Assembly (NCBI GenBank): GCA_947184155.2
Contig: CAMXCT020001668.1
Coordinates: 488,936 to 552,935, forward strand
DNA from: Cladocopium goreaui
Lineage: Eukaryota; Sar; Dinophyceae; Suessiales; Symbiodiniaceae
DNA: 64,000 bases
Reading direction: 5' to 3'
The notes under the pieces are model-generated. The model was not told the DNA's origin and searched no databases. It worked only from the letters and a program-made list of their open reading frames with translations. Position numbers and translations under genes: made by a program. Shown one piece after another: positions 3,890 through 53,681 of this stretch. Within the stretch, counting starts at the first letter, position 1, and each line of letters opens with the position of its first letter.

Positions 3890-5484
3890 CTGCCAGGCGA
3901 GAAACTCCGGAGCCACTGAGCCAACATCTGCATTAGAAACACCAAGGAGGCCGATGAATCAAACATACCATTAGGAAGGACAATAATATTGATAAATTGA
4001 TACTGGCAAAAAAAAAAAATACTTCGAGTGATCCCCACCATGGTATTTCAAGGCATATATTCTGACAGATATTTTGACATATATTGGAGGTCCGGCAGGG
4101 AACACTTTGCTCCAGAGGTTGCTGTTCGGGTCCGGCGGGGAACACTGGGCGGGCGAGGGCAGCTGACATAAAATCTAACAACCCTCATCTGACAGGTGGG
4201 GAATATCAATTCTGAAATACACGCAATAACAGATTGATGGAGGTTATAATCGTATGAATTGCTATTGTAATGTGCTGAGGGGTCCCCAAAAAGGGTTTAA
4301 AATAGTCAAAAACATGAAACAATCCTATTAATCGATCAGTATTGGTATGCCGCCATCCCTCATTGATTTCACCCAATTCCACCCAATTTCAGTGCGATCA
4401 TTCTCAACCAAACGGGATAGATTGGTAAAAAAAAACTGGCTGGAGAAGGTTTCTAGTAGAGACAACCAGGACCATCAACTTATCAACGTTTGAAAAGCCC
4501 CAATAATCTATATAGTCCCATCAAAAATGTCAACCCCAGAATAAACTAAGACCTGGTTGAATTCAATGGGGTATCCTCCAGTAATTCAACATAGCTATGG
4601 AAAATATCCATTTATAGATGATTTTCCTGGTGAAAACTTCAATGTTACAGTAATTCATTTTCCCTAAGGGAATCTTAAATTACCACATGATATCCCATTT
4701 CCATCAATTTCCATCAGTGTCGATCAATTTCCATAAAATCACTCAAAAAATACCACCATGTCCCCATGTCCATCAATTTTACCTCAAAAAACTCGCGGAT
4801 ATCCATGGTTTTCCATCTCGCACCGGGACCATTGAAGAACTGTCTTTGATTCCATGTTGGCAAACATTTACCCAGAAGATGCCCTACTTGCTGGTGAATA
4901 GATGTGAATAGAGCATATGGGATATATTAATTAGCATATGCATCTATATACATACATCTACCATTGTTTTTTGTCAACCAGTTGATGTCAACCTCGGATT
5001 AATAAATGATTTGATACTTAAATGATACCTTCCCACTTAAACAACCGTTTGGGGTTTATTAATCCAGGGTTGACATTATCTATGTTGTGTCTTAACTACA
5101 CAGAAAGCATATGGGATGTCAGCAAGCAGCGAATGCATCGCTGGTTTTCAAGGTAGTAAAAATGGTCAGATTCCAGGGCACCCCCGCCTTAAACCCTCAG
5201 AGGGGCCATCAGATCCCTTTTTTCCACATTTTCCCCACATGTACGAACCAATGTCCGTCCACTTTTTCTGGTTCCCAATATGGATAGCTGTCGAAAACCC
5301 TCACCTTCAGCAGGGTAGTTAGTTGATTGTCCCATTTGAAATTTCTGGGAATGCCTCCAAAATAGTGATCAATTCCATTCAATTACTCTTCAAAACTGAT
5401 AGTCCTGGTCAAAATGATGGAAAAAAGGGCTAGCTCGTGATTGACCAAGGTCAAGCGATGTCAATCGGCTTCCCCACTTTCCAC
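3890..5484. other. Kinase intron, no further gene seen
   Basis: AT-rich, with frequent stops in all frames. A degenerate MITE of the CCCTCTGG family lies at about 4571-4660. Short GGGGAACACT duplicates occur near 4099-4146. Nothing else was recognised. Confidence 0.45.
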
Positions 5485-5598
5485 CCAGGTTTCCCCCGAG
5501 AACTCCTGTGCATCGAGCTCCCCGATGTTTCCTCCTGTGCAAAGCTCCGTGACGACATAGATCGCCTGTCGGTCCTCGAAATATTCGAAGAGCTTCGC
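5485..5598 (-). CDS. Protein kinase exon, hinge (subdomain V)
   Basis: A 114-nt exon (38 codons, phase 0) between a TTTTCCTAG acceptor and a GT donor. It reads AKLFEYFEDRQAIYVV, then TELCTGGNIGEL. This is the strand 4 / strand 5 / hinge segment of a CDPK-like kinase; the family pattern is KLxExFED...IYLVxELCxGGEL. GNIGEL replaces the more usual GELFD. Splicing to the exon at 5980-6026 gives HPNI-AKLFEYFED, an uninterrupted kinase N-lobe. Confidence 0.88.
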
Positions 5599-5673
5599 CT
5601 AGGAAAATGTTCAACGAAGCAGCTGGGGTGATAGGAGGTCATCATTGCCAGGAGCATATCTCACAAATAGATT

Positions 5674-5716
5674 ATGTATGTATGTACGTACGTAACGTAC
5701 GTACGTACGTATGTAT
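5674..5716. repeat. GTAC/GTAT tetranucleotide palindrome
   Basis: Repeats of GTAT and GTAC form a nearly self-complementary tract of about 40 bp (TACGTACGTAACGTACGTA core). It lies in a kinase intron. Confidence 0.8.
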
Positions 5717-5979
5717 AGGGTGGGGTCATTTCAAACTACAATTCGTTCTGAACCATATCAAAGGGACATGGCAATGAAATATCGTCCATCAGCAGGTGAT
5801 CTGTCATGATTTTTCACCGCAAACTAGATATAACTAGATGAATTAGTAGATATATCACGATATATCGTCGACCATCATGGATTTCTCGCCTTGAACATGT
5901 GATTTCATGGATTTCACCATGTTTCAGCACACTTCCCATGGCCATGAAAGATAGCGCATGGTCGTATCGTCCCAGTGAC

Positions 5980-6026
5980 GATGTTGGGATGATCCAGCTG
6001 CAAAAGCGCATAGACCTCCAGGGTGT
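5980..6026 (-). CDS. Protein kinase exon, helix C and HPNI
   Basis: A 47-nt exon after a TTTCCCAG acceptor and before a GT donor (GTCACTGG). It reads TLEVYALLQLDHPNI. The Glu is the expected helix C salt-bridge partner of the catalytic Lys. LDHPNI is the conserved strand 4 lead-in of CDPK/CAMK kinases. Frame and phase agree with the next exon at 5485-5598. Confidence 0.8.
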
Positions 6027-6230
6027 CTGGGAAATCAACGAAGCCAGCCATGGGTTTGGGGTGATTTCATGGTGATCTCATGGGAAGATATAATGATATA
6101 ATGGGATATTCCGATTCATAGGAGATAATGATGGATAAGGGTTTTGAACCAGCTATCATGGATTCATGGGCATTTCTCGGGTGGAAAATATGAGAAAATC
6201 ATCCACATAAATTGGGGGTCCAGCATCTGC

Positions 6231-6293
6231 GAGCAAAACGAGCGGTTTCCTTCGTGCTCGCGATTGTGCGGCTTTTGATACCATTGCTGCTCC
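6231..6293 (-). CDS. Probable kinase exon, strands 2-3 of the N-lobe
   Basis: Between a GGCAG acceptor and a possible GC donor (GCAGATGC) the frame reads SSNGIKSRTIASTKETARFA. It aligns to the strand 2 / strand 3 area of CDPKs (pattern GxxSKAxxKSTxExRAVK), and its phase fits the HPNI exon downstream. The canonical Gly-rich loop is incomplete and the catalytic Lys is not visible, so a short further exon or a degenerate N-lobe is possible. The giant retroelement starts 242 bp upstream, so any 5' part of the gene lies on its far side or is lost. Confidence 0.45.
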
Positions 6294-6534
6294 CTGCCTC
6301 GTTGGAGATACTCTGAAGTTCCTCCGAGCTGTCCGAAGGCTTCTTAATCACCTGAAGGTACCGGTGCGCTGACCCAGGTAGTTGGAGGGGTCCTAGGCAT
6401 TCAAGCCACACCACCATTAAAAAGCTGGAGAGACGAAATGCCACAATACAAGCTACAGCCCTGCTGATGTCACCATTATAATATGCAAGTAATCAGTCAT
6501 CAACAGAAACGGTGAGGTAACCACCACACATACA

Positions 6535-7109
6535 CACACTAGACAAGAATGGATCATTATATGATCCGGCAGGAACTGAATCCTGAAACATGCAGATTAA
6601 GTACGAAACACTGAAATTAACGATGTATCCTACGAATAATAGAAGTACTTCAGAATGGTCATCGGGTTCAGAATCGACGTCAAAAAGAATGAATAAACCA
6701 GTAATAATACCATCGGCGAAGAATAACGTCGGCGAAACTTAGATGAATACCATCGGCGACGATGTTGTCGGCGATCATGTAAACAAAATAATACATAGGT
6801 GCTTTCTACGTCCTTGCTCTGAGGAAGGTTCTGATGCAACTGAATCAATAGTAAATGACCAAAAGTAATTCCAGACTGCGACAACAGTGCAGCAAATTGT
6901 ATAAGATTGTGGGTGGGGTTCTTAGCTTGGCCCCTTGCTATGTCGGAAAAATACAAGCGCAGGTACGTCGGAATGATCAGTCCCGATATCACAATCTCAA
7001 ACCACCGTCTTCGTTGGGCAGTGGATGGAATGAGATTCACTGCCCCCCTGCAAATTAGTGAAAACCAATAAGAAGTTTTACATCTGTTCAGATGGTACAC
7101 ACACACACC
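6535..7109 (-). repeat. Terminal direct repeat, 3' copy (pLTR-like)
   Basis: Starts CACACTAGACAAGAATGG and ends in (AC)n. The match to 19107-19682 is base for base at a constant offset of 12572, except for about five substitutions: two near 6632-6637, two near 6657-6663 and one near 6875. Near the outer end it holds two adjacent perfect hairpins. It also contains four copies of the octamer [AG]TCGGCGA between 6710 and 6775. Confidence 0.93.
6551..6585. other. Twin hairpins at the element end
   Basis: GGATCAT-TAT-ATGATCC has a 7-bp stem. It is followed directly by CAGGA-ACTGAA-TCCTG, a 5-bp stem. Both recur unchanged at 19123-19157. They could be structure recognised by the reverse transcriptase or an RNA 3' end signal; this is inference. 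Confidence 0.6.
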
Positions 7110-7262
7110 TCGCATGTAGCGAGGTTGGTTTTTTGGAAGAACTTCGCTGGCGGAATCGGCAATACACCAGTGAAAATGAACCTGTAAGAACCTAATGCAC
7201 AAACGGGCGATCACTTCAATCAGAAGAGGAATTCGGAGCTTGTAGAAGGACTTCCATAGCAT
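6630..7262 (-). CDS. Open frame through the terminal repeat, uncertain gene
   Basis: A 210-codon ATG frame that overlaps the 3' end of ORF B2 and runs through most of the repeat. The equivalent frame is open in the other copy (19202-19687). It encodes several hydrophobic stretches (for example IVISGLIIPTYLRLYFS and FGHLLLIQLH) and no recognisable domain. The two repeats are 99% identical, so conservation of the frame is weak evidence. It may be a small membrane protein or chance. Confidence 0.25.
   Translation of the reverse strand: MLWKSFYKLRIPLLIEVIARLCIRFLQVHFHWCIADSASEVLPKNQPRYMRGVCVYHLNRCKTSYWFSLICRGAVNLIPSTAQRRRWFEIVISGLIIPTYLRLYFSDIARGQAKNPTHNLIQFAALLSQSGITFGHLLLIQLHQNLPQSKDVESTYVLFCLHDRRQHRRRWYSSKFRRRYSSPMVLLLVYSFFLTSILNPMTILKYFYYS
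7108..7124. other. Hairpin at the inner edge of the 3' repeat
   Basis: CCTCGC-ATGTA-GCGAGG, a perfect 6-bp stem exactly where the (AC)n of the repeat stops and the unique body begins. It is absent next to the other repeat copy. Confidence 0.55.
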
Positions 7263-8070
7263 CGTGGAAGCTCATGTGTTCAACCATCGCCCAAGTCTGA
7301 TCGAATTCCCCAGATGCCGTAGCAGCCTTCAAGGTATCAGATAGATCTTTGGCTAATTCATGGATCCGGGTGGTCAGGCTCGGTTCATCTGCAGGAGATG
7401 TCGTCTCAATGGGCACATTGTGAAAAGGATGGTGTCCGTGTACAAGGGGGATCTCAAAATGATGTCGCCAATAGTCCGCTGTACGCAGGGACCACTCCCA
7501 GTTGCCCGAAAGACCATAAAAATAGTGTTCAGGGTCACGACATCGGGAATGCCCTAACAAGGGGATTTCTTCAATGAATAGCTCCCTGGTGTTGTTGGAG
7601 TGGGTAATGACCTTGAATTGGATCTGGTGAACCACGCGAGAAGAGAATTGAGCACGATGGAGGTAGTTGTGTGTAGAACTTGACTCCGTCGGAAAAGGGA
7701 CGCCAGGAGGTGCTGGTCCTGAATATGTATCAGAATGGGCCATAGTACCCGAGTCAGGAGCCGTACTGTCATTGACCAAAGGTGCCGAAGTAGGGCTGGT
7801 AGTAGTGTCAGGAGGGCCTGAGTGACATAGTGCCGAAGTCTGGGCGTCTGATACTTGAACTGGGTTGGTAGGAGCGAGTCCACGGGTAGGATTCGAAGGC
7901 CAAGACAAGCCCGCCACGGTCGCGTCTCGTTTGTGTTCCATGGGTGAAACAGTCAGAAATGCGAGAAATAGGGCAACAGCGGCTGAGGCATCAAGAATTG
8001 CAAATATAAGCCAATCCCGAAAAAGATAACATTCACAAAGATAATAATAACAGTGAAGTCCAGTCCCCAA
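7216..8070 (-). CDS. Giant element ORF B2
   Basis: Function unknown. The first good ATG is at 7941 (MEHKRDATVAG); the frame is open upstream to 8070 but reads as hydrophobic, non-conserved sequence. The N-terminal half is Ser/Thr/Pro-rich. The C-terminal half looks globular, ending in a helical tail (IHELAKDLSDTLKAAT). The central segment LRTADYWRHHFEIPL matches LRTTANHWRRHYDVPI of ORF B1, with further matches around HQIQFKVI / HSIFIKKL, so B1 and B2 are paralogues. It is the last main ORF before the 3' repeat and follows A2 by about 270 bp. It is probably a structural or accessory protein of the element; no catalytic motif is visible. Confidence 0.6.
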   Translation of the reverse strand: MGTGLHCYYYLCECYLFRDWLIFAILDASAAVALFLAFLTVSPMEHKRDATVAGLSWPSNPTRGLAPTNPVQVSDAQTSALCHSGPPDTTTSPTSAPLVNDSTAPDSGTMAHSDTYSGPAPPGVPFPTESSSTHNYLHRAQFSSRVVHQIQFKVITHSNNTRELFIEEIPLLGHSRCRDPEHYFYGLSGNWEWSLRTADYWRHHFEIPLVHGHHPFHNVPIETTSPADEPSLTTRIHELAKDLSDTLKAATASGEFDQTWAMVEHMSFHDAMEVLLQAPNSSSD

Positions 8071-8208
8071 TCAAGCGGTTCAATTACGGCGAAGAAGCCA
8101 AAGCACAAAGTCAAATAAAGTAGGAATCAAAGAATCCTTTGTGTTGGTGAGGTGTCAAGGGAGAGTGGAAAACCCTGCAGTATGGTCTTTTGTTGGCCGG
8201 CAAGCGTA

Positions 8209-8802
8209 TCAGGGCAGGATCACACCGGAGCTAATTTTGTAGCATTGCAGACGTAGTATAAAAGGCTGTGTGGTACCCGGAATGAGCAAAGAGGATTCGC
8301 GGGAATTGTACTGCTGAAGTCGCCATTCAGGTCGGTATTCCTCCAAAAGCTGCAAGACCGTCATATCATTGGAGACTTGGAATGTATCACCGTCCAGGTC
8401 GCAAAAGCGAAACTCCAAATTCGAGGGATCAATTTGGATGTCCCATTGGGACCTCAATCTTTTGGAAATACAGAAGCGTAGTTCGGCAATTGGGATGAGG
8501 CCGGCTTCAACTGGTTCCATCTGACGCGACCAGGTAAACAGAGCCTCCAGTTCGTAGCCACTAACATTTCTGAAATTGGAGCTGGCCATAGCCATGTAGT
8601 GTTCACGGTCAGGTTCGCTACGATGAGTCAATGCCTGTAGAGGAGAGAAGTCAACCAAGATAAGAACAGGTCGGTTTGGAGGAGGGTTTGCATCACCAGG
8701 AAGGCCTCGATGTCCAGCAAACCATCCAATGGTTCGTGTACCCAGCGGTGTCTCAATCGTGGATGTAGCGCGATATGGATTGGGTCGAGAAGAACGAGCC
8801 AT
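8209..8802 (-). CDS. Giant element ORF A2
   Basis: 197 codons from the ATG at 8802 (MARSSRPNPYRATST). Function unknown. The N-terminal 50 residues are basic and Pro/Gly-rich, the rest looks globular. RPVLILVDFSPLQAL, SQWDIQIDPSNLEF and MTVLQLLEEYRPEW line up with RPVIFQLDLKPMQQL, QRWSIHLPASDF and HSLLDVLNWFYPSW of ORF A1, in the same order and spacing. A1 and A2 are therefore a duplicated gene. The same frame is open upstream to 9465, but there it is the shadow of B1. Confidence 0.65.
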   Translation of the reverse strand: MARSSRPNPYRATSTIETPLGTRTIGWFAGHRGLPGDANPPPNRPVLILVDFSPLQALTHRSEPDREHYMAMASSNFRNVSGYELEALFTWSRQMEPVEAGLIPIAELRFCISKRLRSQWDIQIDPSNLEFRFCDLDGDTFQVSNDMTVLQLLEEYRPEWRLQQYNSRESSLLIPGTTQPFILRLQCYKISSGVILP

Positions 8803-8983
8803 GGCATCTAATGTCGAGTGTCGAAGATAAAGCGGAAAGCCCAAGCTGCAGAATAGGTGGATAATGACCAAGGAATAAAGCTCAAAGTGTTGAAAATTGA
8901 AGAGAAACGGTTTACCTAGTAAGAGGTCACAAAAAGACGGTAAAGCCCTGTTCTTTTCCGGTGCCGGCAAATAATGTGGTGTA

Positions 8984-9685
8984 TTACACACTGGAGTCTG
9001 ACATATCCATCGGGTCCGTATCGTTCTCTTCCAGTGGACCTTGTACTTGTTGAGGAGGGACGGTAGGCCGAGTGAGATGTAAAGTACGTTGTAATGTTGC
9101 CGGTGGTGACGAAGGTGGTGTAGACCGCCATGGTGGCCAGTATAAGGAGGTGGTAGTTCCTTGAGAGTGATGTTGCGCAGAGCGTCCCCAGCATGACTGC
9201 AAAATATAGAGTTGGTCCGGTATTGCTTCATACGGTTGGGAGACATAGACATTGGAGTGTTCAGGGTGTGGTAGAACAGGAACAGCAGTAGTCGTAGAGG
9301 AGGAGGATGATGATTGAATTGGTACGTCATAGTGTCGGCGCCAATGATTAGCCGTGGTACGTAGAGTCGCCTGATCAGTTGTGAGGTGCATGTTCTCCAG
9401 AAAGGTTTCCACAGGTTTCCACGTTTCAATACCATCCATTGTCCTTTCCACGACCCAAAGTTCATCCGGACGGTCAGACAACGGGTAGCTCAGCTTCTTG
9501 ATGAATATGGAATGAACAGTTGTCGAGGTCGGGATGGTTCGTGCTTCGCGAGGGATATACGATGCCGAAGTAGGATCATCAGGAGGTAGATGTGGAACAG
9601 GGCCATGTAGGGATGTAGGTGGGGAACGGTGTGAAGCCGATCGAGCAGTATCATCCGTGTTGGAGATCATCGTGTACAACAACAA
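8984..9685 (-). CDS. Giant element ORF B1
   Basis: 233 codons; the probable starts are near 9685 or at MISNTDDTARS (9670). Function unknown. It has a Ser/Pro-rich N-terminus, a central globular part with the B-family signature (LRTTANHWRRHYDVPI), then a low-complexity Ser/Thr/Pro tail with an acidic end (ENDTDPMDMSDSS). It lies between A1 and A2, so the order A1-B1-A2-B2 shows that an A-B gene pair was duplicated in tandem. Its tail is longer and more polar than that of B2. Confidence 0.6.
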   Translation of the reverse strand: MLLYTMISNTDDTARSASHRSPPTSLHGPVPHLPPDDPTSASYIPREARTIPTSTTVHSIFIKKLSYPLSDRPDELWVVERTMDGIETWKPVETFLENMHLTTDQATLRTTANHWRRHYDVPIQSSSSSSTTTAVPVLPHPEHSNVYVSQPYEAIPDQLYILQSCWGRSAQHHSQGTTTSLYWPPWRSTPPSSPPATLQRTLHLTRPTVPPQQVQGPLEENDTDPMDMSDSSV

Positions 9686-9899
9686 TAATATGGTTTCGGA
9701 ATACGCTGGACTGAAGCCAAAGAGCCATGAGAAAGGTCAATGATGACGGGATGAATAACGAACATCAACAAAAGGAAAAGAAAAGAAAGAAGTAAAGGAG
9801 ACCAAGGAAAACCAAACCCAGGATGGCGGACCTCATAACGAATGTTTTCCCTTTTTCCTCATAGATGTGAGCATCGCCAAGATCTATCTGGAAAACTAA

Positions 9900-10526
9900 T
9901 CACTCGGCCGCCTTAGTATATCTGGTGGCCGTGATGAATGGATGCCCACGGGGAATCACTTGGACATGTACAGCGAAGCCTGTGTCTTGTGCATCTGGAT
10001 GGGGTGTCAGCAGCAAAGGTGAACACTCACGGGTCGTGAAGGCATCGAGATGTTGGTGAGTCTTCCATGACGGATAAAACCAGTTCAAAACGTCCAGAAG
10101 AGAATGAGGAAGGTCATCAAGCATCTGAGCTCCTTGATCGGTGTCGATCATCATGTAGAAGTCGGAAGCTGGTAGGTGTATCGACCAGCGTTGCAGCAGC
10201 GTATCGGTGACTACTTTTTTGAGGTCGGAGACAAAGTGACTGCGAGCATAGTCCGGGTAGATCACCTTGAACGTCTGGAACAGGCTATCATAGGTGGCCG
10301 TAGGAAGGTTGCCCGCTACCTTGGGGGTCAAGATGTTGTAGTAAGGGTTGCGGAAGGCCAGTTGCTGCATCGGCTTCAGGTCCAATTGGAAAATAACGGG
10401 TCGGTGGGGTGTCGAAGGCGGAGTCCGATTGGGTGGATGCTGAAGTGACGAGGAGCCCATAGCGGAGGACGATGCCCGTGTCGGAGAGCGTGAGCGTCGT
10501 GTAGGTGAGATCCTCTCGTGGGACAT
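9900..10526 (-). CDS. Giant element ORF A1
   Basis: 208 codons from MSHERISPTRRSRSPTRA (ATG at 10526; an in-frame ATG at 10571 is an alternative, and the frame is open to 10790). The N-terminus is SR-rich, followed by a globular region ending HVQVIPRGHPFITATRY. It shares ordered blocks with A2. No enzymatic motif is seen. It follows the Myb ORF and precedes B1. The SR-rich leader resembles those of ORF1 and ORF4, which hints that several products of the element bind RNA or enter nuclear speckles (inference). Confidence 0.65.
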   Translation of the reverse strand: MSHERISPTRRSRSPTRASSSAMGSSSLQHPPNRTPPSTPHRPVIFQLDLKPMQQLAFRNPYYNILTPKVAGNLPTATYDSLFQTFKVIYPDYARSHFVSDLKKVVTDTLLQRWSIHLPASDFYMMIDTDQGAQMLDDLPHSLLDVLNWFYPSWKTHQHLDAFTTRECSPLLLTPHPDAQDTGFAVHVQVIPRGHPFITATRYTKAAE

Positions 10527-10746
10527 AGCTCGCAGTTGGCAATAGCGGTCCAGGTGAATGCGGAGAGACATAATAAATGGCTGGCGGGTTGTGTGATACG
10601 ACGTGTCAAAATTCAATGGGGCAACAACCCCCATGGTTCTGAAGATTAACGAGAAGAAAAATTCCAGAAGGAAGGTCAAATGATTGGTAAAGCTGGGATA
10701 CAGTGCCGCAAACGACCTTTTCCTTTTGGTTCGCATATGTCGTAGG

Positions 10747-11379
10747 TCAGCCCAGTTTGTCTTTGATCTTATTCCACATAGAGCGAACATCTTCCTCGGA
10801 CTTGCCCATCTTGGTCGAGATCACTTTCCATGAAAATCGAGATTTCTCGTCAGCCTTCAAGGTGCGTAGTTTCTGTTTGTCTTCGGAAGTCCAGAGTGAC
10901 AGTGGGCTGGAGGAGCGGGATCGGGATTGGTCACGTCGGCGACGACGCTTGGCAGGTGCCTTTGGAGCGGATTTGGCTTTCTGTTTACGATTCGGTGGTG
11001 ATGGTGTTCTGGTAGAAAGCTTCGAAGGTGCAGGTAAGACATCAGGTGGCGGAGCGGCAACGTGTTGGTGTGGTTCAGGGAGATGGGTTTCCACCAGTTC
11101 ATCCATGAGTGTCTCTTCCTCCGCCATATCCGGCGATGGGATGAGGGCATTGTCAATGAAGGCGTTGGTCTGGTCCGAGTAATGTGGTCGTAGTCCATCG
11201 GGTTGATTCCATACATCTGTACTAGGAAGAGGAGTAGGTTCAATGTTTGGAATGAGCGTGGGTGGTAGTAGCGCCATTGCTCGGTGTAGTAGAAGGTAAG
11301 CATGGTGAACATCATGAAGAAATTGAAGAAACACTGGTTCTTGAATCGGAATTGACGTCGTAGGAGACGAGGAAGCCAT
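10747..11379 (-). CDS. Giant element ORF4, Myb/SANT-domain protein
   Basis: 210 codons from the ATG at 11379 (MASSSPTTSIPIQEP). The C-terminus is a Myb/SANT repeat at about residues 160-208: three tryptophans spaced about 20 apart in SLWTSEDKQKLRTL, FSWKVISTKMGKSEED and VRSMWNKIKDKLG. It is preceded by a basic stretch (AKRRRRRDQSRSRS) that could be a nuclear localisation signal. An acidic segment (DMAEEETLMDELVE) lies mid-protein. Myb/SANT domains bind DNA or chromatin, and a single telomere-type Myb repeat is one option. It starts 177 bp after the ORF3 stop. It may direct the integration complex to chromatin or regulate element expression. Confidence 0.75.
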   Translation of the reverse strand: MASSSPTTSIPIQEPVFLQFLHDVHHAYLLLHRAMALLPPTLIPNIEPTPLPSTDVWNQPDGLRPHYSDQTNAFIDNALIPSPDMAEEETLMDELVETHLPEPHQHVAAPPPDVLPAPSKLSTRTPSPPNRKQKAKSAPKAPAKRRRRRDQSRSRSSSPLSLWTSEDKQKLRTLKADEKSRFSWKVISTKMGKSEEDVRSMWNKIKDKLG

Positions 11380-11555
11380 GACAATGCGTCGAGTATGGGC
11401 CAACAAGTAAAAGAGGCCGAGTTTGAGGGTAAGCCAGCTGGAGAAGCGCTATTATTCCAAGATCGAATAAATTCTAATATGATCCAAATAGGTGAAACGT
11501 TCAGCCAGATGTGAATAGTGAAACGTAAGCGCCAGCAGCAGGACGGTTCAGGATT

Positions 11556-14282
11556 TTACCACAATGAGGAAACGTGCAAAAATTGACGAATCGGCTTGGC
11601 TGCAGCGACAAGATCGGGCTCGGTAAAACCTGCAGATCTGTACAAACGGTGCAGTGCGGCAAAACCTCGTGTTCGTTCGTAGGCAGGGTGCGCGCATTTG
11701 GCGACCAGAAATAAGCGTGAAACAAAACCCGAAAGTTGGACGGCCAAAGGTGATGCGGAAAATGGTGCCATGACCTGGTTGAAGTCGCGTGGAGGGCTGT
11801 AGCGAAGGGCAAAGGGCTCGAACTCGATGCAAAAGCCCAAGAACTCCTGGTCCGGTTCCGTTTCCAAAATGGTAGGATGGCCGTAGAACTCTGGGTGGAG
11901 GAAATTGGCGAAGCAGATTTCGTAGTCCCAGCCGGGGTCCGACAAGCACAGTCTGTGGTCCACATAGCGAAGGAGGCGAGCTGTGAGATCCATGTTGCTG
12001 AGGGTGGTGCTGTAGGTTCGGTACCAGATTTCTTCAGACAGTGCGACAACCATCATGCACAATGCTGGACTAAGTGGGGAGCCCATAGGGGATCCTCGGA
12101 TTTGTTCAAAAACCGTAGTGCCAATGGAGAATTGAGTCATTTTCAAAGACATGAGGATGATGCGTTCAATGTCCCGAATGAAGATCTTCCTTGTCACATT
12201 GAGTGTACGGCATGTGCGGCCTTTGACTACGTCCCCTGTGTTGTTGCCCGGAGTTGCCTTCACGGAGATGATCTCGTCGGGGTCGGTGTTCATGAGGGTC
12301 GAGAGGAACTGCAAGGTCAGTCGCCAGCTCGCGATGAAGCGGTCAGTGTCAATGCTTGTGAAAAAGCCCGCAAGATCTTGGTTGTGTATGCGGGGAGTGG
12401 GGAGCGAATCGAAGTCGGTGTCCTTGAGGAGCTTGATGAGATCAAATACATCACCCTTTGCCAGGTTGTGGGGAAACGCCTGGGGTAGAAGGTTGTAGAT
12501 CAGCTTGGCAGTGCAGTTCAACATAGGTCGAAAAGGCGCCGTGAAGAAGCTGACAATGGGTCGTCCAGCCTTGAACTGCTTTTTCCGTTTGGGTAGAACA
12601 TAGGCATTCGGCAGGTCTCGTCCAGCACCAAGTGCCCATGGGTATGCTTTGCCAAAATGGCGGTTGATCTCGGCGATGGTCCGTTCAATGATGTCACTCG
12701 GGCTTTGCTCTAATTTGCGAAATACCAACGGGTCGGCGAAGGTGGTGGTGAGGCACTGGAAGTAGAGTACGGGGCAGTATATTCGTAGGGATGTAGCTCG
12801 CTTGTCCTCGTTGTGGAAGACGGCTTCTGGAAAAAGACGTTTGAAGCGGACGATGTCTTTGTGAGTGATGTGGTTGTTGAGTGTGTGGTAGTGGGATTGA
12901 ATAGAACGATGCCAGAGCTCATCAATATGGGACTTTTGTATGGAAGGAAGTGAGTTCCGGGTAGTCCACGTCCGCAGAGCCAGGCGAAGCGATGTCTGGA
13001 TTTCTTTGGAAGGTGGGAAGATTTTGTTTTGGAGCGAACCAGTCGCAATGGATGTGTGTGGGCCATCATCGAAATGCAGGTTGTCGCCGTCGAGGACCAG
13101 GTGGTGATCAGGTTGGAGACCATGAAGGGCATGAGGTCGCAAGGCATCACATGCACACTGTGGGGTTTCGTCATCAGCCCATTTGGTAGCGGCTTCTTTG
13201 TGATTGCACAAGCTGTCCATCACCGAGGGGAACTTTGTGAAAACAATCGCCGTGGAAGGGTTCTGCAATGTGGTGTTGTAATGTCGAGTTTGATGAACGT
13301 GGGAGGTGAGCAGCCGTCGAAGATCCCGAGTCCAATTGGGGCATAGTAGCCAAGGCGCACGAAGAGGAACCGGTTTTCTGACCCGTTTGGCTTTCCAGAA
13401 GGTCAAAGCTCGGTCAATGGCATTGACGGCGTACGACCTTTGGGGTTCTCCAAGGTTGTTGGCAAGGCGTCGAATGAAGTAGCAGCCTTGAACTCCAATT
13501 TCGTTGGATCGTAATTTCTTCTCCATGTGGAAGCGTCGGACGGAGTTACTGCCCAAATCCTGGATAATCTCCCAAAGTTGTACTCGTCGATGGAAAAGAG
13601 GACTGTGAAGAGCGTGTCGAACATGATGGGGTGTAGATCGCCATCGAAGTTTCCGCCACAAGGAAAATGCTCCAAATTGTCGAGAAGCGGAAAATTTGGT
13701 ACGTGCAATGAGTCCTTTTCGGCAATTGAAAAACTGGTAAGTGAACGGAGTGTTCAATCGAGGTTGCCACAGTTGAATTAAGGCCTGTTCCAAGGCCCAA
13801 AAGTTGGATTTGTTGGTGTAGATCGGGAAAACAGACCACATCCAGAAATTGTCAAATCTGCACCAAAACCGTAAGGCTACTTCGGCCAGCACGAATTTAT
13901 GTTGTTGCACTTGCAGAAATTTCCGATAGCGAGAGTGTTCGCGGTCTAAAACAAATGAGGACGTGGAACCAACATAAAACTTAGGTTGAAAATTCGCAAT
14001 GTGGCAGAAACGAATATACACCGCCTTAGGATGCTTGAAACATTGGAGGGCGACAGACAAGTCATCCCAGGATCTGCAAAAGAAAATACTCTGCATCGGA
14101 GTGCCTTTTAGCAAGGCTTGGAGTTTCGGAGTGGCCCGTGGATGTAATAACACATATTGGCCCATCAATACTGTTTGAAGCATCCGAAAAGCAAAAAAGA
14201 CATCAACAGAAGGGGACAACGTGAAAGGAGTCAAAAGTGCAAGAACAAGAATACAGGAATGAGCCACGGCCAAAGTTCGCAT
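11556..14282 (-). CDS. Giant element ORF3, GIY-YIG endonuclease-reverse transcriptase (Penelope-like, permuted)
   Basis: About 908 codons from the ATG at 14282 (MRTLAVAHSC); the frame opens at 14315. Residues are numbered from 14315. At 98-190 lies a GIY-YIG nuclease: AVYIRF, KFYVGSTSSF, DREHSRYRKF, and the catalytic-type Glu in ALEQALIQLWQPRLN. A CxC motif (QCACDALRPH) is at 387-389. The reverse transcriptase spans 570-835: GRPIVSFFTAPFRPMLN, motif A QDLAGFFTSID, motif B GSPMGSPLSPALC, motif C LLRYVDHRLC, then QEFLGFCIEFEPF. The EN-CxC-RT order matches the N-terminal-endonuclease clade of Penelope-like elements (Naiad/Chlamys). The roughly 85 residues between motifs A and B leave room for an insertion like that of telomerase. 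Motif C is YVDH, not YVDD, so the second catalytic Asp is missing; this copy may be inactive. Confidence 0.85.
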   Translation of the reverse strand: MRTLAVAHSCILVLALLTPFTLSPSVDVFFAFRMLQTVLMGQYVLLHPRATPKLQALLKGTPMQSIFFCRSWDDLSVALQCFKHPKAVYIRFCHIANFQPKFYVGSTSSFVLDREHSRYRKFLQVQQHKFVLAEVALRFWCRFDNFWMWSVFPIYTNKSNFWALEQALIQLWQPRLNTPFTYQFFNCRKGLIARTKFSASRQFGAFSLWRKLRWRSTPHHVRHALHSPLFHRRVQLWEIIQDLGSNSVRRFHMEKKLRSNEIGVQGCYFIRRLANNLGEPQRSYAVNAIDRALTFWKAKRVRKPVPLRAPWLLCPNWTRDLRRLLTSHVHQTRHYNTTLQNPSTAIVFTKFPSVMDSLCNHKEAATKWADDETPQCACDALRPHALHGLQPDHHLVLDGDNLHFDDGPHTSIATGSLQNKIFPPSKEIQTSLRLALRTWTTRNSLPSIQKSHIDELWHRSIQSHYHTLNNHITHKDIVRFKRLFPEAVFHNEDKRATSLRIYCPVLYFQCLTTTFADPLVFRKLEQSPSDIIERTIAEINRHFGKAYPWALGAGRDLPNAYVLPKRKKQFKAGRPIVSFFTAPFRPMLNCTAKLIYNLLPQAFPHNLAKGDVFDLIKLLKDTDFDSLPTPRIHNQDLAGFFTSIDTDRFIASWRLTLQFLSTLMNTDPDEIISVKATPGNNTGDVVKGRTCRTLNVTRKIFIRDIERIILMSLKMTQFSIGTTVFEQIRGSPMGSPLSPALCMMVVALSEEIWYRTYSTTLSNMDLTARLLRYVDHRLCLSDPGWDYEICFANFLHPEFYGHPTILETEPDQEFLGFCIEFEPFALRYSPPRDFNQVMAPFSASPLAVQLSGFVSRLFLVAKCAHPAYERTRGFAALHRLYRSAGFTEPDLVAAAKPIRQFLHVSSLW

Positions 14283-14327
14283 AATGTTGGCTGCTTTTGA
14301 GCCAGGTGCTTTCAAATAGGCTGCTAG

Positions 14328-15182
14328 TCAGGATTGCATCAATAACGCCACCGTCATGACCTTGAGGACTACTTCATCCGTGGAGGCTCCCTTGTGCTTG
14401 CAAGGGTCGATACCCATAGCCACGCTTGCGCGTTGGATAGTTTTCGAAGCATCATCGGGTTGGTTTTGCCACCATTCATTGACCTTTTCCAAGTTCTTCT
14501 CCAGGATGTCCTGTTTGGGCTGTGGTAGCTTCAAGGCTTTCAACCACTTGGTGTATTGAGTGTCCGACAATGATGTGGGTTGGTTGTCAACGAGCCAAGT
14601 GTTCACGGAGCCCGGAGAGATAAGCAGAGTTGAGGGGTCAAAGGTCGTAGAAGCGGCAGGTTGTCCTTGAAGTGCACGTCCTATCGGTGTCGTGGCCGGA
14701 GTGGAGCCCGGGGGTGCCGTAGCTGGTGAGGTGGTAGCGGCCGATTTGACCTTGGCCAGTTCAGCTTCCAGTTCAAGAATGCGTTGTTGGCTTGCCACGT
14801 CAGCAGAAGGTTGAGTCGGGAGCCAAGATTGGAGAAGTTGAGCAACATCTTTGGCCATATTTTGGGTGGCTTCCTTCTGGTTGAGACATTGGCCTGCTGA
14901 ACGAGCTCGAAATGTAGCGAGTTTGTCCAAGTCTACATTGCGGGTGCGTAGTTGTGACACCAATTCGGCCACAAATACTGTAGCGCCTATGTTGTCAAAA
15001 GGGAGGACGAAGGTTTCTCTTCCGTATGCAACTCGACGAAGCCAGGTATTGTGCAAGCCCTGGTACAAGAACTTCCAGAGTGGGACTTGTAAAGATGTCC
15101 TTGTAGCTTGAGAATCTGCTTTGTCGAATTCTGGAGGGAAAGTCCAAACCATTGATCTTGTTGGAGTCGTGGAAGTCGACAT
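14328..15182 (-). CDS. Giant element ORF2b, Gag-like second frame
   Basis: The downstream frame of a two-part ORF2; open from 15314, with its first ATG at 15182. It has helical, well-conserved-looking sequence (WKFLYQGLHNTWLRRVAYG), a short coiled coil (RILELEAELAKVKS, about 60% along) and an Ala/Thr/Pro linker. The C-terminal helical domain contains LSDTQYTKWLKALKLPQ and NEWWQNQPDDASK. It ends 46 bp before the first ATG of ORF3. The coding signal switches from the frame of ORF2a to this one at a TTTCCC tract (15136-15141), so the two are probably one protein. By position and composition it may be the nucleic-acid-binding or particle protein; no zinc knuckle is present. Confidence 0.6.
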   Translation of the reverse strand: MSTSTTPTRSMVWTFPPEFDKADSQATRTSLQVPLWKFLYQGLHNTWLRRVAYGRETFVLPFDNIGATVFVAELVSQLRTRNVDLDKLATFRARSAGQCLNQKEATQNMAKDVAQLLQSWLPTQPSADVASQQRILELEAELAKVKSAATTSPATAPPGSTPATTPIGRALQGQPAASTTFDPSTLLISPGSVNTWLVDNQPTSLSDTQYTKWLKALKLPQPKQDILEKNLEKVNEWWQNQPDDASKTIQRASVAMGIDPCKHKGASTDEVVLKVMTVALLMQS

Positions 15183-15816
15183 CAGGTTTCCAGTTCTCCA
15201 CTGGTGGGATTTCAATTGGTCTGCATGTATATCCTTCGTTGACCGTGGAACTTGCTCCCGGGGATGACATAGGTCTCGGCGATCTCGGTGTGAAAGGATG
15301 GCGTTGAGGTGCAAAATTGGCGTTGTTGGGAGGTGTCTGTGAGCTCGGAGGCGGCGTGGGCGGAAAAGGTGCCGTAGGAGAAGTCCATGGTGGGCGTGTT
15401 GGGAACGATGGAGACGTAGGTGGCGGAGGCGGTATTCCGGATGGGTTCCAAAAGGGTCGATGGGTCGTCATGGCATAGTGCATCGGGCCACGGAAAGCCG
15501 GTACTGCTTGGTGCCATCCATGTTGATGACGAGGTGGTGTGCGCGAGCGATCCGGCTGGGAAGGAGGAATTCCATTCATATCCGCGCTGTATTGGGAGAT
15601 CAGGTCCTGGGACGCCATGATGTAGAGAGGGTCACGAGATAATAGGTCAAAGTGCGCTCGAACTGCCGACTGAAAGCTGCGGAAAATGTCGAGGTGAGAC
15701 AAGGGTAATGTGTAATTGAAAAAGTGTGAGACATAATACGTGGTCCCAGTGTGTGAAACGTAAAGTGGCAACGAATCGGGCGAAAGGATCAAAAACATGA
15801 GCATGCAGCGATTCAC
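14995..15816 (-). CDS. Giant element ORF2a, proline-rich first frame
   Basis: The most likely start is the ATG at 15618 (MASQDLISQYSADMNGIPP), though the frame is open to 15816. About 100 residues are Pro/Ser/Thr-rich (SGIPPPPPTSPSFPTRP), followed by PIEIPPVENWKPDVDFH. After about 15136 this frame loses its coding character while the +1 frame (ORF2b) gains it. A +1 slip at TTT-CCC-T would give GLDFP-PEFDKADSQ. Either programmed frameshifting or a disabling mutation would explain this. Confidence 0.55.
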   Translation of the reverse strand: MNRCMLMFLILSPDSLPLYVSHTGTTYYVSHFFNYTLPLSHLDIFRSFQSAVRAHFDLLSRDPLYIMASQDLISQYSADMNGIPPSQPDRSRTPPRHQHGWHQAVPAFRGPMHYAMTTHRPFWNPSGIPPPPPTSPSFPTRPPWTSPTAPFPPTPPPSSQTPPNNANFAPQRHPFTPRSPRPMSSPGASSTVNEGYTCRPIEIPPVENWKPDVDFHDSNKINGLDFPSRIRQSRFSSYKDIFTSPTLEVLVPGLAQYLASSSCIRKRNLRPPF

Positions 15817-15963
15817 AAACCTTTTGAGGAAGAAGTGGCGGCAATACCGAATGTCGGGAGAAGCATTGTTACTCCAAAATGATCGGGCCGGGCCACTAGG
15901 CTCACTGTATCGCTGACGTAGAATAGTCGATACTTGTTCCGGTGCTCCTCAAGGGTAAATAGT

Positions 15964-18585
15964 TCACCAACGAGATTTGGAGTGGTGGGTCGAATGTCGA
16001 GAACGAGGTCGGCCTTCATGGTGCTGGTCGCGAGAATGGTCTTCATAGTATGAGGAGCGGCGATCTCGGCGGCTGTAGGTTGAATTGTCCCAAGAAGCAT
16101 TGTCGTGCCAAGATCGGCGAGCATAGTCCCGAGAGCCAGACGCAGCGGTCTCGCGGTGGCGAGGTGTATCTCGAGAGTCGTTTGGAGGTGGCTCCGAAGG
16201 TTCTGGGGCGTCGGCAGGAGGGTCAGGTCGTACTGGACGTGCATGATCATCAGGAGGTTCCGAAGGTGCATTGGTCTCCGCCGTCTGGTGTGTGATCAAG
16301 CCCGGGAAAACCGAGTGAGTGGAGGCTACGTAGCATATGGATGCGGCGCTTGAGTTCATAGCCGTTGCATTGTCTTTGCCCTTAGCGATGCCCGCAAGGT
16401 TGCACAAGCGTTGGATTTGGTCATTTCCTCCAGCTAGGGCACGGATGCATTTGGGTGAGCGGCATATGGCCAGAAGGCCTGATGGGTTTTGTCCTTTGCC
16501 TATTTTGTAGAGCTGAGAGGTACAGATCTTGACAGCATAGCCGGGTAGGTTGTCGGTGTCTGCGATCTCAGAGGACATTCCGAAGAACCCGTAACACGGG
16601 TATTGAGTCGGTATGCCGGCTTCGTTTTTTGTCCAAGTTGCCGGGCGGATGCAGTCTTCAGCAAGAATTTTGGCAACTGATTCCCAACTTGTTTTGTGGT
16701 AGATCAGGTAGGTGCCCATGTATTCGCCACGGTAGATTGGTTTCTTCTTCAATCCTGTGGGAACCGTGATGGTCAGCAAGTTCTCTGGCTCAATGTAGAA
16801 GGCTTGTGTTTGCCTTGCGAGTTCGATATCCAGTAAGTCAGATTGTGCAAAGGCCCTGGCAATATTCCTGACGGTGGCTTGGCTTGCTTTGATCCAAATA
16901 CAATGATTGTTGACGGTGCGGTATGGTTTAGCCAACTGTTCGAACATCGCGTCCACAAATTGGTTGAAGAGCTGCAAGATAGCCGGGGTCAATGATTGGC
17001 GTAGGGGAACAACATGATCGGGGCCAAGCTCAGTCAGGCAACGGACTCTATGGGGGTCATTGGCCGCCGCCACCATTTCATCGAGGTCGATGTCATTCGT
17101 GTCAAACTTGGTGAGCGAAATTGTATCAGCAAACTCAGAATTTTCACTGTCGCCGTCCGGAACTCGGAAGGACACCGCGCCGAGTGGTGCTGAAGTGTGG
17201 GTTGGTGGGTTGGTTGGTGGTTCCGATGGTGGTGGATCGGTAGGAGAATTGGGTCGAGCAGTGTGGGGGTCGTAGGTGTCGGTGTAGTGGCTTTCGTTCC
17301 ATGTACCCCAGGTGTCATCAGCATCGGGAGTGGGGATGTAGTTCGGATTGGATGGGTTTGCAGCAGGTCGAAGTACGACTTCACGGCCTCTGGATCGGTG
17401 ACGTGGTGTCGCGGAGCGTGGGCGTGGGTGAGATCGATGACGTCGAGGAAGCACAGGAGAGCGGCGTCGTGGTGGTGAGCGTCGTCTGTATGGAGATGGG
17501 GTTCTGCGGCCCTTGTCGGGTTTCGTAGATGATCGATGACGAGGGAGAGGAGAACGAGGTCGCTCTGCACGTGGAGGAGAATAGCGATGGCGATGAGAAT
17601 GTACCGAAGGTCGATGGGAACGTGATCTTGGAGTTCGGGATCGTGGTCGGCGTGTTGGTGGTGGTGGAACTTGTGGTTGGTGAGGAGGAGCGATGGCTGG
17701 AGCTGGGACAATGCGATGGTCCGGAACGTCCGGTTCGGTGGGTCTGGCTTTCGGTGCAGGTGGAGGTGTGGCGATCAGTGGTGGTGTAGGTGTAGGTGGC
17801 GGTATCGGTGGTGTAGGATTCGGCGGAGGTTCATCTTGTTGAAGAAGGAGTTGACGCTGTTCTTGTGCCCGTTGAGAATCCATGATTAATAGTTGCTGAG
17901 CTTGAATAAGTCGAACAGATTCAGCCAGTTGTTGTGCGGTGGAACCCAGGGATGCAAGTTCAGGTGATACGGATGAAGTCGGTGCTGTCGTAGGTGCCGG
18001 TGGTGTAGCGTGAGGAGGGGTTTTCGGAGCTGGCCTGCGCGGTCGATCCGGTCTTTTGTCAGAGCGATGCCTGGGAGCTGCTTTGACTGCTGGGGGCCGT
18101 GGTGAAGGCTCATTTGGAGGGACCGTCGATGCGTCCATCTGTAATGGAGGTTGAACGTGGTGAGGTGGGTATGGAGAACTGGGCAAAGGTGTCGGTGTCA
18201 TAGTCGATGTAGGTGGTGTAGTCGATGTAGGGGATGGAGCCGAAGGGGAAGGCCACGTGGGTGGAGCGGTGGGTGCCATAGGAGATGGAAAAGTCGACGG
18301 AGCGGTGTGCACCATAGTTGGTTCAGGAGCCAAAGGCGAAGGCATGGTGGGTACGAGCTGTGGCCCTGGTACTGCATGAGGAGCCGAAGTCAATGAGGTG
18401 AACGGCAACGATGTTGGGGTTGATGTAGACGGCATGAGCGAAGCTGAGGATGACCATGTAGGATGCAAGGCCGAGGGATGTCCAAATAAATGTGCATTCG
18501 GCGTTGATTGCTGCCACGTCGAAGATGGGTTCGAAGGCTGCGGTGGAGCAGGCCATGATGTTGGCGGAGTGCTCCACGGATGCAT
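15964..18585 (-). CDS. Giant element ORF1, SR/proline-rich protein with a possible ADP-ribosyltransferase-like domain
   Basis: 873 codons from ATG MHPWSTPPTSWPAPP. Roughly: 1-200 Pro/Ser/Thr-rich; 205-255 a helical coiled-coil-like part (AQQLAESVRLIQAQQ); 310-415 Arg/Ser/His-rich (RRRSPPRRRSPVLPRRHRS); 420-520 acidic; 520-765 globular; 790-873 a second Arg/Ser-rich tail. The globular part contains LIYHKTSWESVAKIL and CIRPATW, then CYGFFGMSSE. This recalls the H-x-[ST]-S ... IL ... I-x-P pattern of ADP-ribosyltransferase/Tpt1-type folds, but the resemblance is weak. It is the first ORF after the 5' repeat and is probably the RNA-packaging (Gag-like) protein. RS domains are typical of splicing factors. 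Confidence 0.65.
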   Translation of the reverse strand: MHPWSTPPTSWPAPPQPSNPSSTWQQSTPNAHLFGHPSALHPTWSSSASLMPSTSTPTSLPFTSLTSAPHAVPGPQLVPTMPSPLAPEPTMVHTAPSTFPSPMAPTAPPTWPSPSAPSPTSTTPPTSTMTPTPLPSSPYPPHHVQPPLQMDASTVPPNEPSPRPPAVKAAPRHRSDKRPDRPRRPAPKTPPHATPPAPTTAPTSSVSPELASLGSTAQQLAESVRLIQAQQLLIMDSQRAQEQRQLLLQQDEPPPNPTPPIPPPTPTPPLIATPPPAPKARPTEPDVPDHRIVPAPAIAPPHQPQVPPPPTRRPRSRTPRSRSHRPSVHSHRHRYSPPRAERPRSPLPRHRSSTKPDKGRRTPSPYRRRSPPRRRSPVLPRRHRSHPRPRSATPRHRSRGREVVLRPAANPSNPNYIPTPDADDTWGTWNESHYTDTYDPHTARPNSPTDPPPSEPPTNPPTHTSAPLGAVSFRVPDGDSENSEFADTISLTKFDTNDIDLDEMVAAANDPHRVRCLTELGPDHVVPLRQSLTPAILQLFNQFVDAMFEQLAKPYRTVNNHCIWIKASQATVRNIARAFAQSDLLDIELARQTQAFYIEPENLLTITVPTGLKKKPIYRGEYMGTYLIYHKTSWESVAKILAEDCIRPATWTKNEAGIPTQYPCYGFFGMSSEIADTDNLPGYAVKICTSQLYKIGKGQNPSGLLAICRSPKCIRALAGGNDQIQRLCNLAGIAKGKDNATAMNSSAASICYVASTHSVFPGLITHQTAETNAPSEPPDDHARPVRPDPPADAPEPSEPPPNDSRDTPRHRETAASGSRDYARRSWHDNASWDNSTYSRRDRRSSYYEDHSRDQHHEGRPRSRHSTHHSKSRW

Positions 18586-19106
18586 CGCTTCAGTATATCA
18601 AAACAAAAGTGAACAATCACATACAGGATTCAGTCCCTAACTACCTAAAAAGTCGTGCGATTATTCCCTGCACCGGGACCGTGGTCAAGTCGTGCCGCAA
18701 TGGCATAAAACAGCTTCCAAGTTCCATCGAATTAGATGCACAAAATGTTTCACCTCACCAGAGAACCAAAAAGAAGGAATACCACACCTGAAAGTCGTGT
18801 GCCTGCCTGGTTCCTGTATCAAATGCTGTTGTCATGGACCGTCAAAAGCAGCTGCGAAAAAGGAGGTTTCTGAATGTTCGGCACAACGTCACTCCGTGGA
18901 AGAGAATTTCACCAGGATCTCAAGGGACGACAGGAGCCGCGGGACTTCACAAAAGGTGCAGAACAGAAAGGCTGACTGTTTCGCTTTACTTAGATGAATT
19001 ACTAAATTAAAATGTGTGAATTCCGAATTCAAGTCTGTCAACACTCACCCTGAAGAGGGTTGCCTCAATTGGCTCCATGGCACCATGTCGGAGCCACCAT
19101 GGAAAT
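18586..19106 (-). other. 5' leader of the giant element
   Basis: About 520 bp between the 5' terminal repeat and ORF1 with no persuasive ORF on the minus strand. It would be the untranslated leader and may carry promoter or spliced-leader acceptor sites; none could be assigned by eye. Confidence 0.45.
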
Positions 19107-19682
19107 CACACTAGACAAGAATGGATCATTATATGATCCGGCAGGAACTGAATCCTGAAACATGCAGATTAAGTACGAAACACTGAAATTAACAATGCAT
19201 CCTACGAATAATAGAAGTACTTCAGAACGGTCATAGGGTTCAGAATCGACGTCAAAAAGAATGAATAAACCAGTAATAATACCATCGGCGAAGAATAACG
19301 TCGGCGAAACTTAGATGAATACCATCGGCGACGATGTTGTCGGCGATCATGTAAACAAAATAATACATAGGTGCTTTCTACGTCCTTGCTCTGAGGAAGG
19401 TTCTGATGCAACTGAATCAATAGTAAATGACCAAAAGTAATTCCAGATTGCGACAACAGTGCAGCAAATTGTATAAGATTGTGGGTGGGGTTCTTAGCTT
19501 GGCCCCTTGCTATGTCGGAAAAATACAAGCGCAGGTACGTCGGAATGATCAGTCCCGATATCACAATCTCAAACCACCGTCTTCGTTGGGCAGTGGATGG
19601 AATGAGATTCACTGCCCCCCTGCAAATTAGTGAAAACCAATAAGAAGTTTTACATCTGTTCAGATGGTACACACACACACAC
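19107..19682 (-). repeat. Terminal direct repeat, 5' copy (pLTR-like)
   Basis: Second copy of the 575-bp repeat, starting CACACTAGACAAGAATGG and ending in (AC)n before CACATTC. It is about 99% identical to 6535-7109, so the element inserted, or was homogenised, recently. Transcription of the minus-strand ORFs would start in or near this copy. Confidence 0.93.
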
Positions 19683-20481
19683 CACATTCAAATGTGAAAC
19701 TGAAAAAAAAAGGTGAACCACAGTTCAATAGTTTCAGGGTATGCCAACATAGTTGCAAAACTTCCGTTTTGGAGTCACGATGTGCTGGTGGACAGCAACC
19801 TGTTTCAAGATTTGATAGTCATGCGGTTGATGAGTCCGTGATGAATCACTAAGCATGGGAAGCAAAACAAACATCATTATATAGGAATGCAGGGGATATG
19901 GGGTCGCCTTACTTAGATGTTCCCATTTTTTACACAGGTTTGCAAGCTGTTTTTCACACACCCACCCGCATTGTCTCTTTTTGCCTTCTCTGTCTAATTC
20001 CTTTCATTATCCACTGGGACATGATGGGTAATGATTGCATGTATTTGGCAGATATAATTTGATATAATTATATAATGATGGAATGTGATGGACAATACAT
20101 GATGCATCATAATCATCATTATCATCATTAATGTGCCAGGTATTATATATACATAGATATACCGTTTTAGTTGACTTATACATTATATACTGTATACCAA
20201 CCAAATATCATGGTTTTTCTTCGTGTCTGTAACCTCTTTCTAGCCGTGACTAGCCAGGATGAGTTCTGGCGAAGCTCAGGTGACTGCCATGAAGCTTGCC
20301 CAGTCACTTTGATTGCTCGAATATCTCCGCCTAAAAGGATGAACGAACGCATGAAATGTCCGAAATGTGCCAGGAATACGTACCATTCAGTGCATCAGAT
20401 AAATATGTGTATTTATATAATTGATACTTGGAAAGTAGAAGGAGTCCTCAGAAAACTTTGAGTTTCAATACAATCACTCAC
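19683..20481. other. Flank of the giant element, intron-like
   Basis: AT-rich. At 20250-20340 the minus strand reads DIRAIKVTGQASWQSPELRQ, a possible small exon (kinase strand 3-like AIKV), but support is thin. A hammerhead-like core occurs at 19827-19841. Confidence 0.35.
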
Positions 20482-20790
20482 GCTTGGTGGTTCTCCATAT
20501 AATACTCCCATGTCCCAAAACCCATCTGAGCTTGGCCCTTTTCAAGCTCGGATGCCCCGTAACACACTCCGTTGTGTGGGATATCGAAGTCGTCCATCCC
20601 CTGCCAGATGCTTGGAGGATCATCCTCCACCCGTCGAAAAAACCCGTCGAAAAGTATTTGTTCATTCCGCTTCGAGCAGCTCATCCGATGCCGCATGCGG
20701 TAGACGTGTCCAAAGCCGCCATGGCCCAAGGGTTTCGGGGAGCCGTAGGAGCGTTCCAGGCGCCGCGAGGGGTCAGGACACAAAAGTAAT
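20482..20790 (-). CDS. Exon of unknown gene, possible kinase-like Gly-rich loop
   Basis: About 100 codons open on the minus strand, GC-rich against an AT-rich background, with a good GT donor (GTGAGTG at 20475-20481). It encodes PDPSRRLERSYGSPKPLG, then HGGFGHVYRMRHRMSCSKRN, and ends with GTWEYYMENHQA. LGHGGFGHVYRMRH resembles a protein kinase glycine loop (LGxGxFGxVY). But 65 residues follow without an AxK motif, so either splicing is more complex or the match is fortuitous. It could be an upstream exon of the kinase at 0-6.3 kb, now separated by the giant element, or a neighbouring gene. Confidence 0.45.
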
Positions 20791-47503: not shown

Positions 47504-47537
47504 ATCTTTGATGTAACCACTCTGAGTTACAAACCAC

Positions 47538-53658: not shown

Positions 53659-53681
53659 GTCTTTTCCCAATTCAAGCCGTT

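Follow-up and report, generated by a model that had tools for sequence, protein, structure and literature searches.

Penelope-like elements (PLEs) published so far are 4-6 kb in size and hold one or two open reading frames (ORFs), according to the available part of PMC6431247. Their mobilisation is outlined in PMC11167929 (available in part). The giant exception so far is formed by the Terminons, which are telomeric and have no nuclease in the ORF of the reverse transcriptase (RT) (PMC6431247, same part). Here, a stretch of 64,000 nt from Cladocopium goreaui (contig CAMXCT020001668.1, 488,936-552,935), called the window, was analysed together with the 1.17-Gb assembly (6202 contigs). The window contains a 12.6-kb element, very probably a Penelope-like retroelement of giant size that has several genes and an endonuclease placed N-terminally of the RT.

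Two direct repeats of 574 bp (6535-7108 and 19107-19680; 99% identical) enclose eight conserved ORFs, all on the minus strand. One encodes a combined endonuclease and RT (EN-RT). An earlier note on this DNA had described near-identical direct repeats of about 575 bp around at least eight same-strand ORFs including an EN-RT, and both statements are borne out. The ORFs are named A, B, D (EN-RT), E, F, G, H and I from 5' to 3', skipping the letter C. The unit has the order LTR + A-B-(UGA)-EN-RT-E-F-G-H-I + LTR (LTR, long terminal repeat). ORF B is frameshifted in the window copy and shows as two overlapping frames; this copy is therefore not fully intact. The features, in window coordinates, are:

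19111..19670, minus strand: 5' LTR-like repeat, on the coding strand GTACCATCTGAACAGATG ... CTTGTCTAG, with TG runs on either side
19531..19623, minus strand: structured RNA in the 5' LTR, with helix P1 (19610-19617 with 19588-19595) and loop 19596-19609, indicated by covariation
15964..18585, minus strand: ORF A, 873 aa, with a Pro/Arg-Ser-rich N-terminal half and a tentative C-terminal ADP-ribosyltransferase (PARP-like) fold
14328..15948, minus strand: ORF B, 496 aa in intact copies, ending TGA CTAG in frame with the EN-RT
14323..14333, minus strand: B / EN-RT junction, TCC TGA CTA GC, containing the readthrough motif UGA CUA G
11556..14327, minus strand: EN-RT, 923 codons from stop to stop, first ATG at 14282 (908 aa)
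10747..11379, minus strand: ORF E, 210 aa, with a C-terminal Myb/SANT-like DNA-binding domain
9900..10634, minus strand: ORF F, 244 aa, a paralogue of ORF H
8984..9670, minus strand: ORF G, 228 aa, with weak paralogy to ORF I
8209..8802, minus strand: ORF H, 197 aa when read from the start chosen for the paralogy comparison; a longer frame of 418 aa is open in the window copy
7216..7941, minus strand: ORF I, 241 aa
7108..7124, minus strand: terminal hairpin CCTCGCTACATGCGAGG, with which the internal unit ends on its 3' side; a TG run and then the 3' LTR come directly after it
6959..7051, minus strand: structured RNA in the 3' LTR, the same as in the 5' LTR
6539..7098, minus strand: 3' LTR-like repeat, with 5 substitutions relative to the 5' LTR

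The EN-RT comprises a GIY-YIG domain at about residues 99-195 and a telomerase-like RT from about residue 367, the endonuclease preceding the RT in the polypeptide. Fold comparison supports both assignments and places the RT nearest to telomerase. A telomerase-related RT, a GIY-YIG endonuclease and terminal direct repeats (pseudo-LTRs, pLTRs) in tandem or partial-tandem arrangement are features of PLEs, and all are present here. The earlier proposal of an endonuclease-bearing PLE with an accessory package is largely upheld, and most of the package is kept across two clades (below). Database searches returned 63 homologues of the EN-RT in one case and 129 in another (120 of the 129 listed), Durusdinium trenchii being the only organism named among those listed. 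The usual motif C of RTs is YxDD. At this position (window 11955-11966, minus strand), YVDH is found in the window copy and YVDN in 43/43 relatives showing the motif.

The LTR-like repeat recurs in the genome, with at least 46 matches from the 40 of 2230 first-look candidates that were scored; the repeat-bracketed unit is therefore not a product of chance. Ten further two-repeat copies align along the unit, nine of them colinear with the window copy. Two of these (C6012 and C1564) are colinear but have internal deletions. In the tenth copy, C3181, a stretch matching window 13786-16637 is inverted (L027, about 4051-6917), which flips ORF B and breaks ORF A and the EN-RT. Including the window copy, ORF B is open in 9/11 copies and the EN-RT in 7/11. 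C3135 and C657 are alike in both flanks, C890 and C4480 in the 5' flank, and the 11 copies hence represent at least nine insertions. The more diverged copies C838 and C6176 hold all eight ORFs in order at 71-97% amino acid identity; C6176 has its EN-RT split into three parts and, of ORF A, shows only residues 398-873. The same ORF set and order in other copies, proposed in the earlier note as a check, has been encountered. No stop interrupts the EN-RT in 44 of the 49 genomic copies with the best scores, all at least 97% identical (49 scored of 1884 first-look candidates). The sequences establish one transposing LTR-eight-ORF-LTR unit with many young copies.

A second, diverged clade was reached through the relative P0067, 44-45% identical to the window EN-RT. 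A genome search with P0067 gave 50 scored matches at 46-49% identity, two of which were read (C52 and C5903). LTR-like repeats of 464 bp (97% identical, 10.8 kb apart) are present in C52 and of 416 bp (99%, 11.6 kb apart) in C5903. Both have the ORF order of the window copy: A, B, EN-RT, E, H-like and I-like. Identities to the window family are 28-31% for ORF A in C52 (split over frames) and 23% in C5903 (E 6e-8), 39-40% for ORF B, 45-46% for the EN-RT, 35-36% for ORF E (Myb), 27-31% for the H-like and 27-33% for the I-like ORF. C5903 has a second, weaker H-like ORF. No separate equivalent of ORF G was found in C52 or C5903, and no second F/H-like ORF in C52. Accordingly, six of the eight ORFs are common to both clades, and the conservation of most accessory ORFs extends to protein identities as low as about 23-45%. 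C5903 (L065) begins in a TG run right after a window-family LTR end. The same type of junction follows the LTR in L034, so that elements of both clades lie side by side.

The accessory ORFs go with the EN-RT in all 14 other copies read, i.e. the ten two-repeat copies, C838, C6176, C52 and C5903. Being kept with the EN-RT across copies and clades, they are part of the element. A composite, in which a plain one-ORF PLE is combined with nested or neighbouring unrelated elements bearing the accessory ORFs, would suit a genome dense in repeats and an ORF set in which the EN-RT alone encodes a clear enzyme of mobile elements (ORF frames scanned against Pfam). The constant association, with one inverted case and down to more than 50% protein divergence, makes such a composite extremely improbable, although the copies were chosen for two LTRs, one LTR or an EN-RT and are not a random sample. 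An EN-RT alone between repeats, with accessory ORFs from nested elements, named earlier as the refuting outcome, was seen in 0/14 of them.

Selection on the ORFs was assessed by the ratio of nonsynonymous to synonymous substitution rates (dN/dS), applying Nei-Gojobori counts of each copy versus C890. The pair C3181-C890 (dS about 0.2-0.6) yielded 0.21 for A, 0.08 for D, 0.17 for E, 0.08 for F, 0.16 for G, 0.40 for H and 0.22 for I. The value for H was taken over 373 codons, more than the 197 of the frame otherwise considered, and may be inflated by this. ORF B lies in the inverted stretch of C3181, where it was not read, and gave 0.06 with C47. Near-identical copy pairs are uninformative (some 0.3-0.7 on a handful of changes), and the EN-RT of the broken copy C1564 showed 0.82. 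The ratio is below 1 for every ORF where divergence permits reading, and the counts indicate that the element's ORFs evolve under purifying selection. Host genes can be carried between the pLTRs of PLEs (PMC3846280, in the part available), and ORFs A and E have host-like domains, as would be expected of passive transduced cargo without element functions. Ratios well under 1, and the retention of most of the package across two clades with EN-RTs about 45% identical, render an origin of the accessory ORFs as mere cargo quite improbable. ORF A has 43 database homologues (52-98% identity), and ORF B is without known domain. ORF F is paralogous to ORF H, and ORF G weakly to ORF I; F to I appear to represent a duplicated two-gene module.

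The LTRs of the window copy, taken inside the TG runs, differ by 5 substitutions over 560 nt without gaps. Within-copy pairs differ by 0-5 substitutions in 10/11 copies, with short gaps in addition in C47 and C657. The exception is C1564 (L021-L022), whose 5' and 3' LTRs differ in type over the first ~200 nt, pointing to a mosaic copy from recombination or template switching between subfamilies. One and the same LTR type occurs in 7/11 copies; the argument for one LTR template per cycle consequently rests on the window copy, C47 and C3181, each of which has its own type with at least 46 substitutions from most others. TG runs flank both sides in 11/11 copies (6-16 nt in the nine measured). An unbroken TG run precedes 19 of 20 further 5' LTRs, and the run before the remaining one (L053) is TG-rich but broken; at L040 and L047, the run comes after another LTR end. 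Just beyond the runs, the sequence is only mildly TG-rich (0.27-0.28 versus 0.15-0.16), and part of the TG may therefore come with the element. At the end of the internal unit, the terminal hairpin, which reads CCCCGC..GCGGGG in some of the other copies, precedes a TG run. A second LTR stretch, GCATCAGAACCTTCCTCAGAGCAAGGACGTAGAAAG, is present in the window family and C52 (L062-L063) and was not seen in C5903 by eye.

The presence of two complete, identically bounded LTRs that are almost the same within a copy, while LTR types vary from copy to copy, could also be explained by a true LTR retrotransposon with strand transfer and an acquired PLE-like RT, or by a PLE that obtained its LTRs by LTR-type strand transfers. 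This origin is considered improbable. Integrase, protease and RNase H, the hallmarks of LTR retrotransposons, were not matched by Pfam in any of the ten scanned ORF frames at a cut-off of E 1. The RT fold is nearest to telomerase. The LTR-(TG)-LTR tandems (L031, L037, L040 and L047) are in keeping with the partial tandems of PLEs, as is the TG run that separates the LTR from the internal region.

Hammerhead ribozymes are frequent in the pLTRs of PLEs, if not universal. Neither an Rfam hammerhead at E<=5 nor any other Rfam family matched in window 5500-20500 or in twelve LTR-bearing loci. A structured RNA of ~93 nt is located in the fast-changing part of the LTR, where the arms vary between types and remain complementary. 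A pattern with flanking letters and arm spacing fixed and pairing left free occurs in 62/66 records; three of the remaining four are without that LTR part, and L020 has one anchor letter changed. In hairpin P1, 112/112 cells pair over 14 arm types, both clades included and one mis-parsed duplicate row excluded, compared with 25-46% pairing in slid controls. Seven of the eight pairs are changed on both sides (reached by 7/500 shuffles), 43 cells carry a two-sided change (0/500) and the covariation is 1.01 versus 0.24 (0/500). Further pair types are no more numerous than after shuffling (250/500). The P1 loop pairs with a stretch downstream of AACGAAG, the own partner being strictly best in 13/14 types and tied in one (0/20000 permutations). 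A third hairpin, P3, is present in 12/12 types tested, two of which have identical P3. The closing GCAGG/CCTGC pairs are invariant, and covariation cannot speak to them. The loop pairing may coexist with P1 or exclude it.

The 43 two-sided changes in the eight-pair P1 helix make the LTR RNA a strong candidate for a functional RNA of a new class. More specifically, the pseudoknot might be a new catalytic (self-cleaving) or RT-programming RNA that replaces the PLE hammerhead and makes one-LTR, perhaps circular, RNAs, with LTR units spreading alone like retrozymes; this far-reaching proposal is regarded as possible but doubtful. Such RNAs, if made, would account for the like LTRs within copies and for the LTR-(TG)-LTR tandems. 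In that case, the element would represent a retro-machine of several proteins and programmed UGA readthrough, with a complexity not known in telomerase-like retroelements outside rotifer telomeres.

ORF B and the EN-RT lie in one frame, separated by a single stop. The stop is TGA followed by CTAGC in 11/11 family copies and in C838, C6176, C52 and C5903 (15/15 examined), and TGA CTAG is kept in both clades despite only about 40% identity of ORF B. UGA CUA G is a known high-readthrough motif (PMC12233894, in the part available). Four database protein models fuse B and EN-RT. Three of these (P0012, P0054 and P0063) have Trp at the stop position, which could reflect TGG or the gene caller's code; the position could not be placed in the fourth, P0075. 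The residue at the first ATG of the EN-RT is Leu in P0012 and P0054. B and B-EN-RT apparently form a readthrough pair. UGA readthrough would yield a minority B-EN-RT fusion beside free B, a ratio control resembling that of gag and gag-pol, and the junction offers a ready test of readthrough in the host.

The following cycle is proposed from the sequence features. RNA would be made from the LTR, and the GIY-YIG domain would nick a (TG)n/(CA)n tract. The (UG)n of the RNA, located after the terminal hairpin, could anneal to the (CA)n end, and the RT would copy the RNA by target priming. Both LTRs would derive from one template per cycle, a tandem or circular RNA, the LTR pseudoknot acting as a signal for RT recognition, processing or circularisation. 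A plausible role of ORF E (Myb-like) is binding to target or LTR DNA, and ORF A (ADP-ribosyltransferase-like) plausibly modifies host factors. Elsewhere in the window (45749-53670, minus strand), long same-strand ORFs of 584 and 1896 aa are found, the latter with weak RVT_2 (E 0.025) and CCCH-finger matches; they perhaps belong to a Copia-type element.

No description of the lineage was found in the literature searched, which did not cover Craig et al. 2021 (cited in PMC9033089). Those authors are said to report PLEs with an N-terminal endonuclease ('permuted'), named Chlamys, Naiad and Dryad, in which GIY-YIG precedes a telomerase-like RT and which are reportedly short, with one or two ORFs. 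The N-terminal position of GIY-YIG reported for them is shared by the present element. We know of no eight-gene package, UGA-CUAG junction or co-varying LTR pseudoknot in these elements. Canonical endonuclease-bearing Penelope/Poseidon elements resemble the present one in having GIY-YIG and a telomerase-like RT in one polypeptide, pLTRs, tandem or partial-tandem arrangement and an RNA fold in the pLTR; they differ by a C-terminal endonuclease, one ORF, an AT-rich target and a hammerhead ribozyme (PMC11167929, as far as its available part describes them).

Terminons, the giant PLE-related elements of rotifer telomeres, likewise combine a PLE-type RT with many accessory ORFs, far above the usual PLE size, and have a terminal RNA fold followed by short repeats matching the target. 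Their RT ORF is endonuclease-deficient, their sites are telomeric, and they carry hammerheads and a different accessory set, namely exonuclease, esterase/lipase, Rep and separate GIY-YIG-like nucleases (PMC6431247, in the part available). Here, the endonuclease is fused to the RT, and copies are interspersed at (TG)n, far inside long contigs (C890 at 684-697 kb of 1610 kb; the window copy at 495-509 kb of 1563 kb). Identity with Terminons was rejected on the endonuclease in the RT ORF and the non-telomeric copies. An old, high-copy, endonuclease-bearing lineage with a conserved eight-gene package shows that the evolution of telomerase-type retroelements into complex machines is possible at interspersed sites as well.
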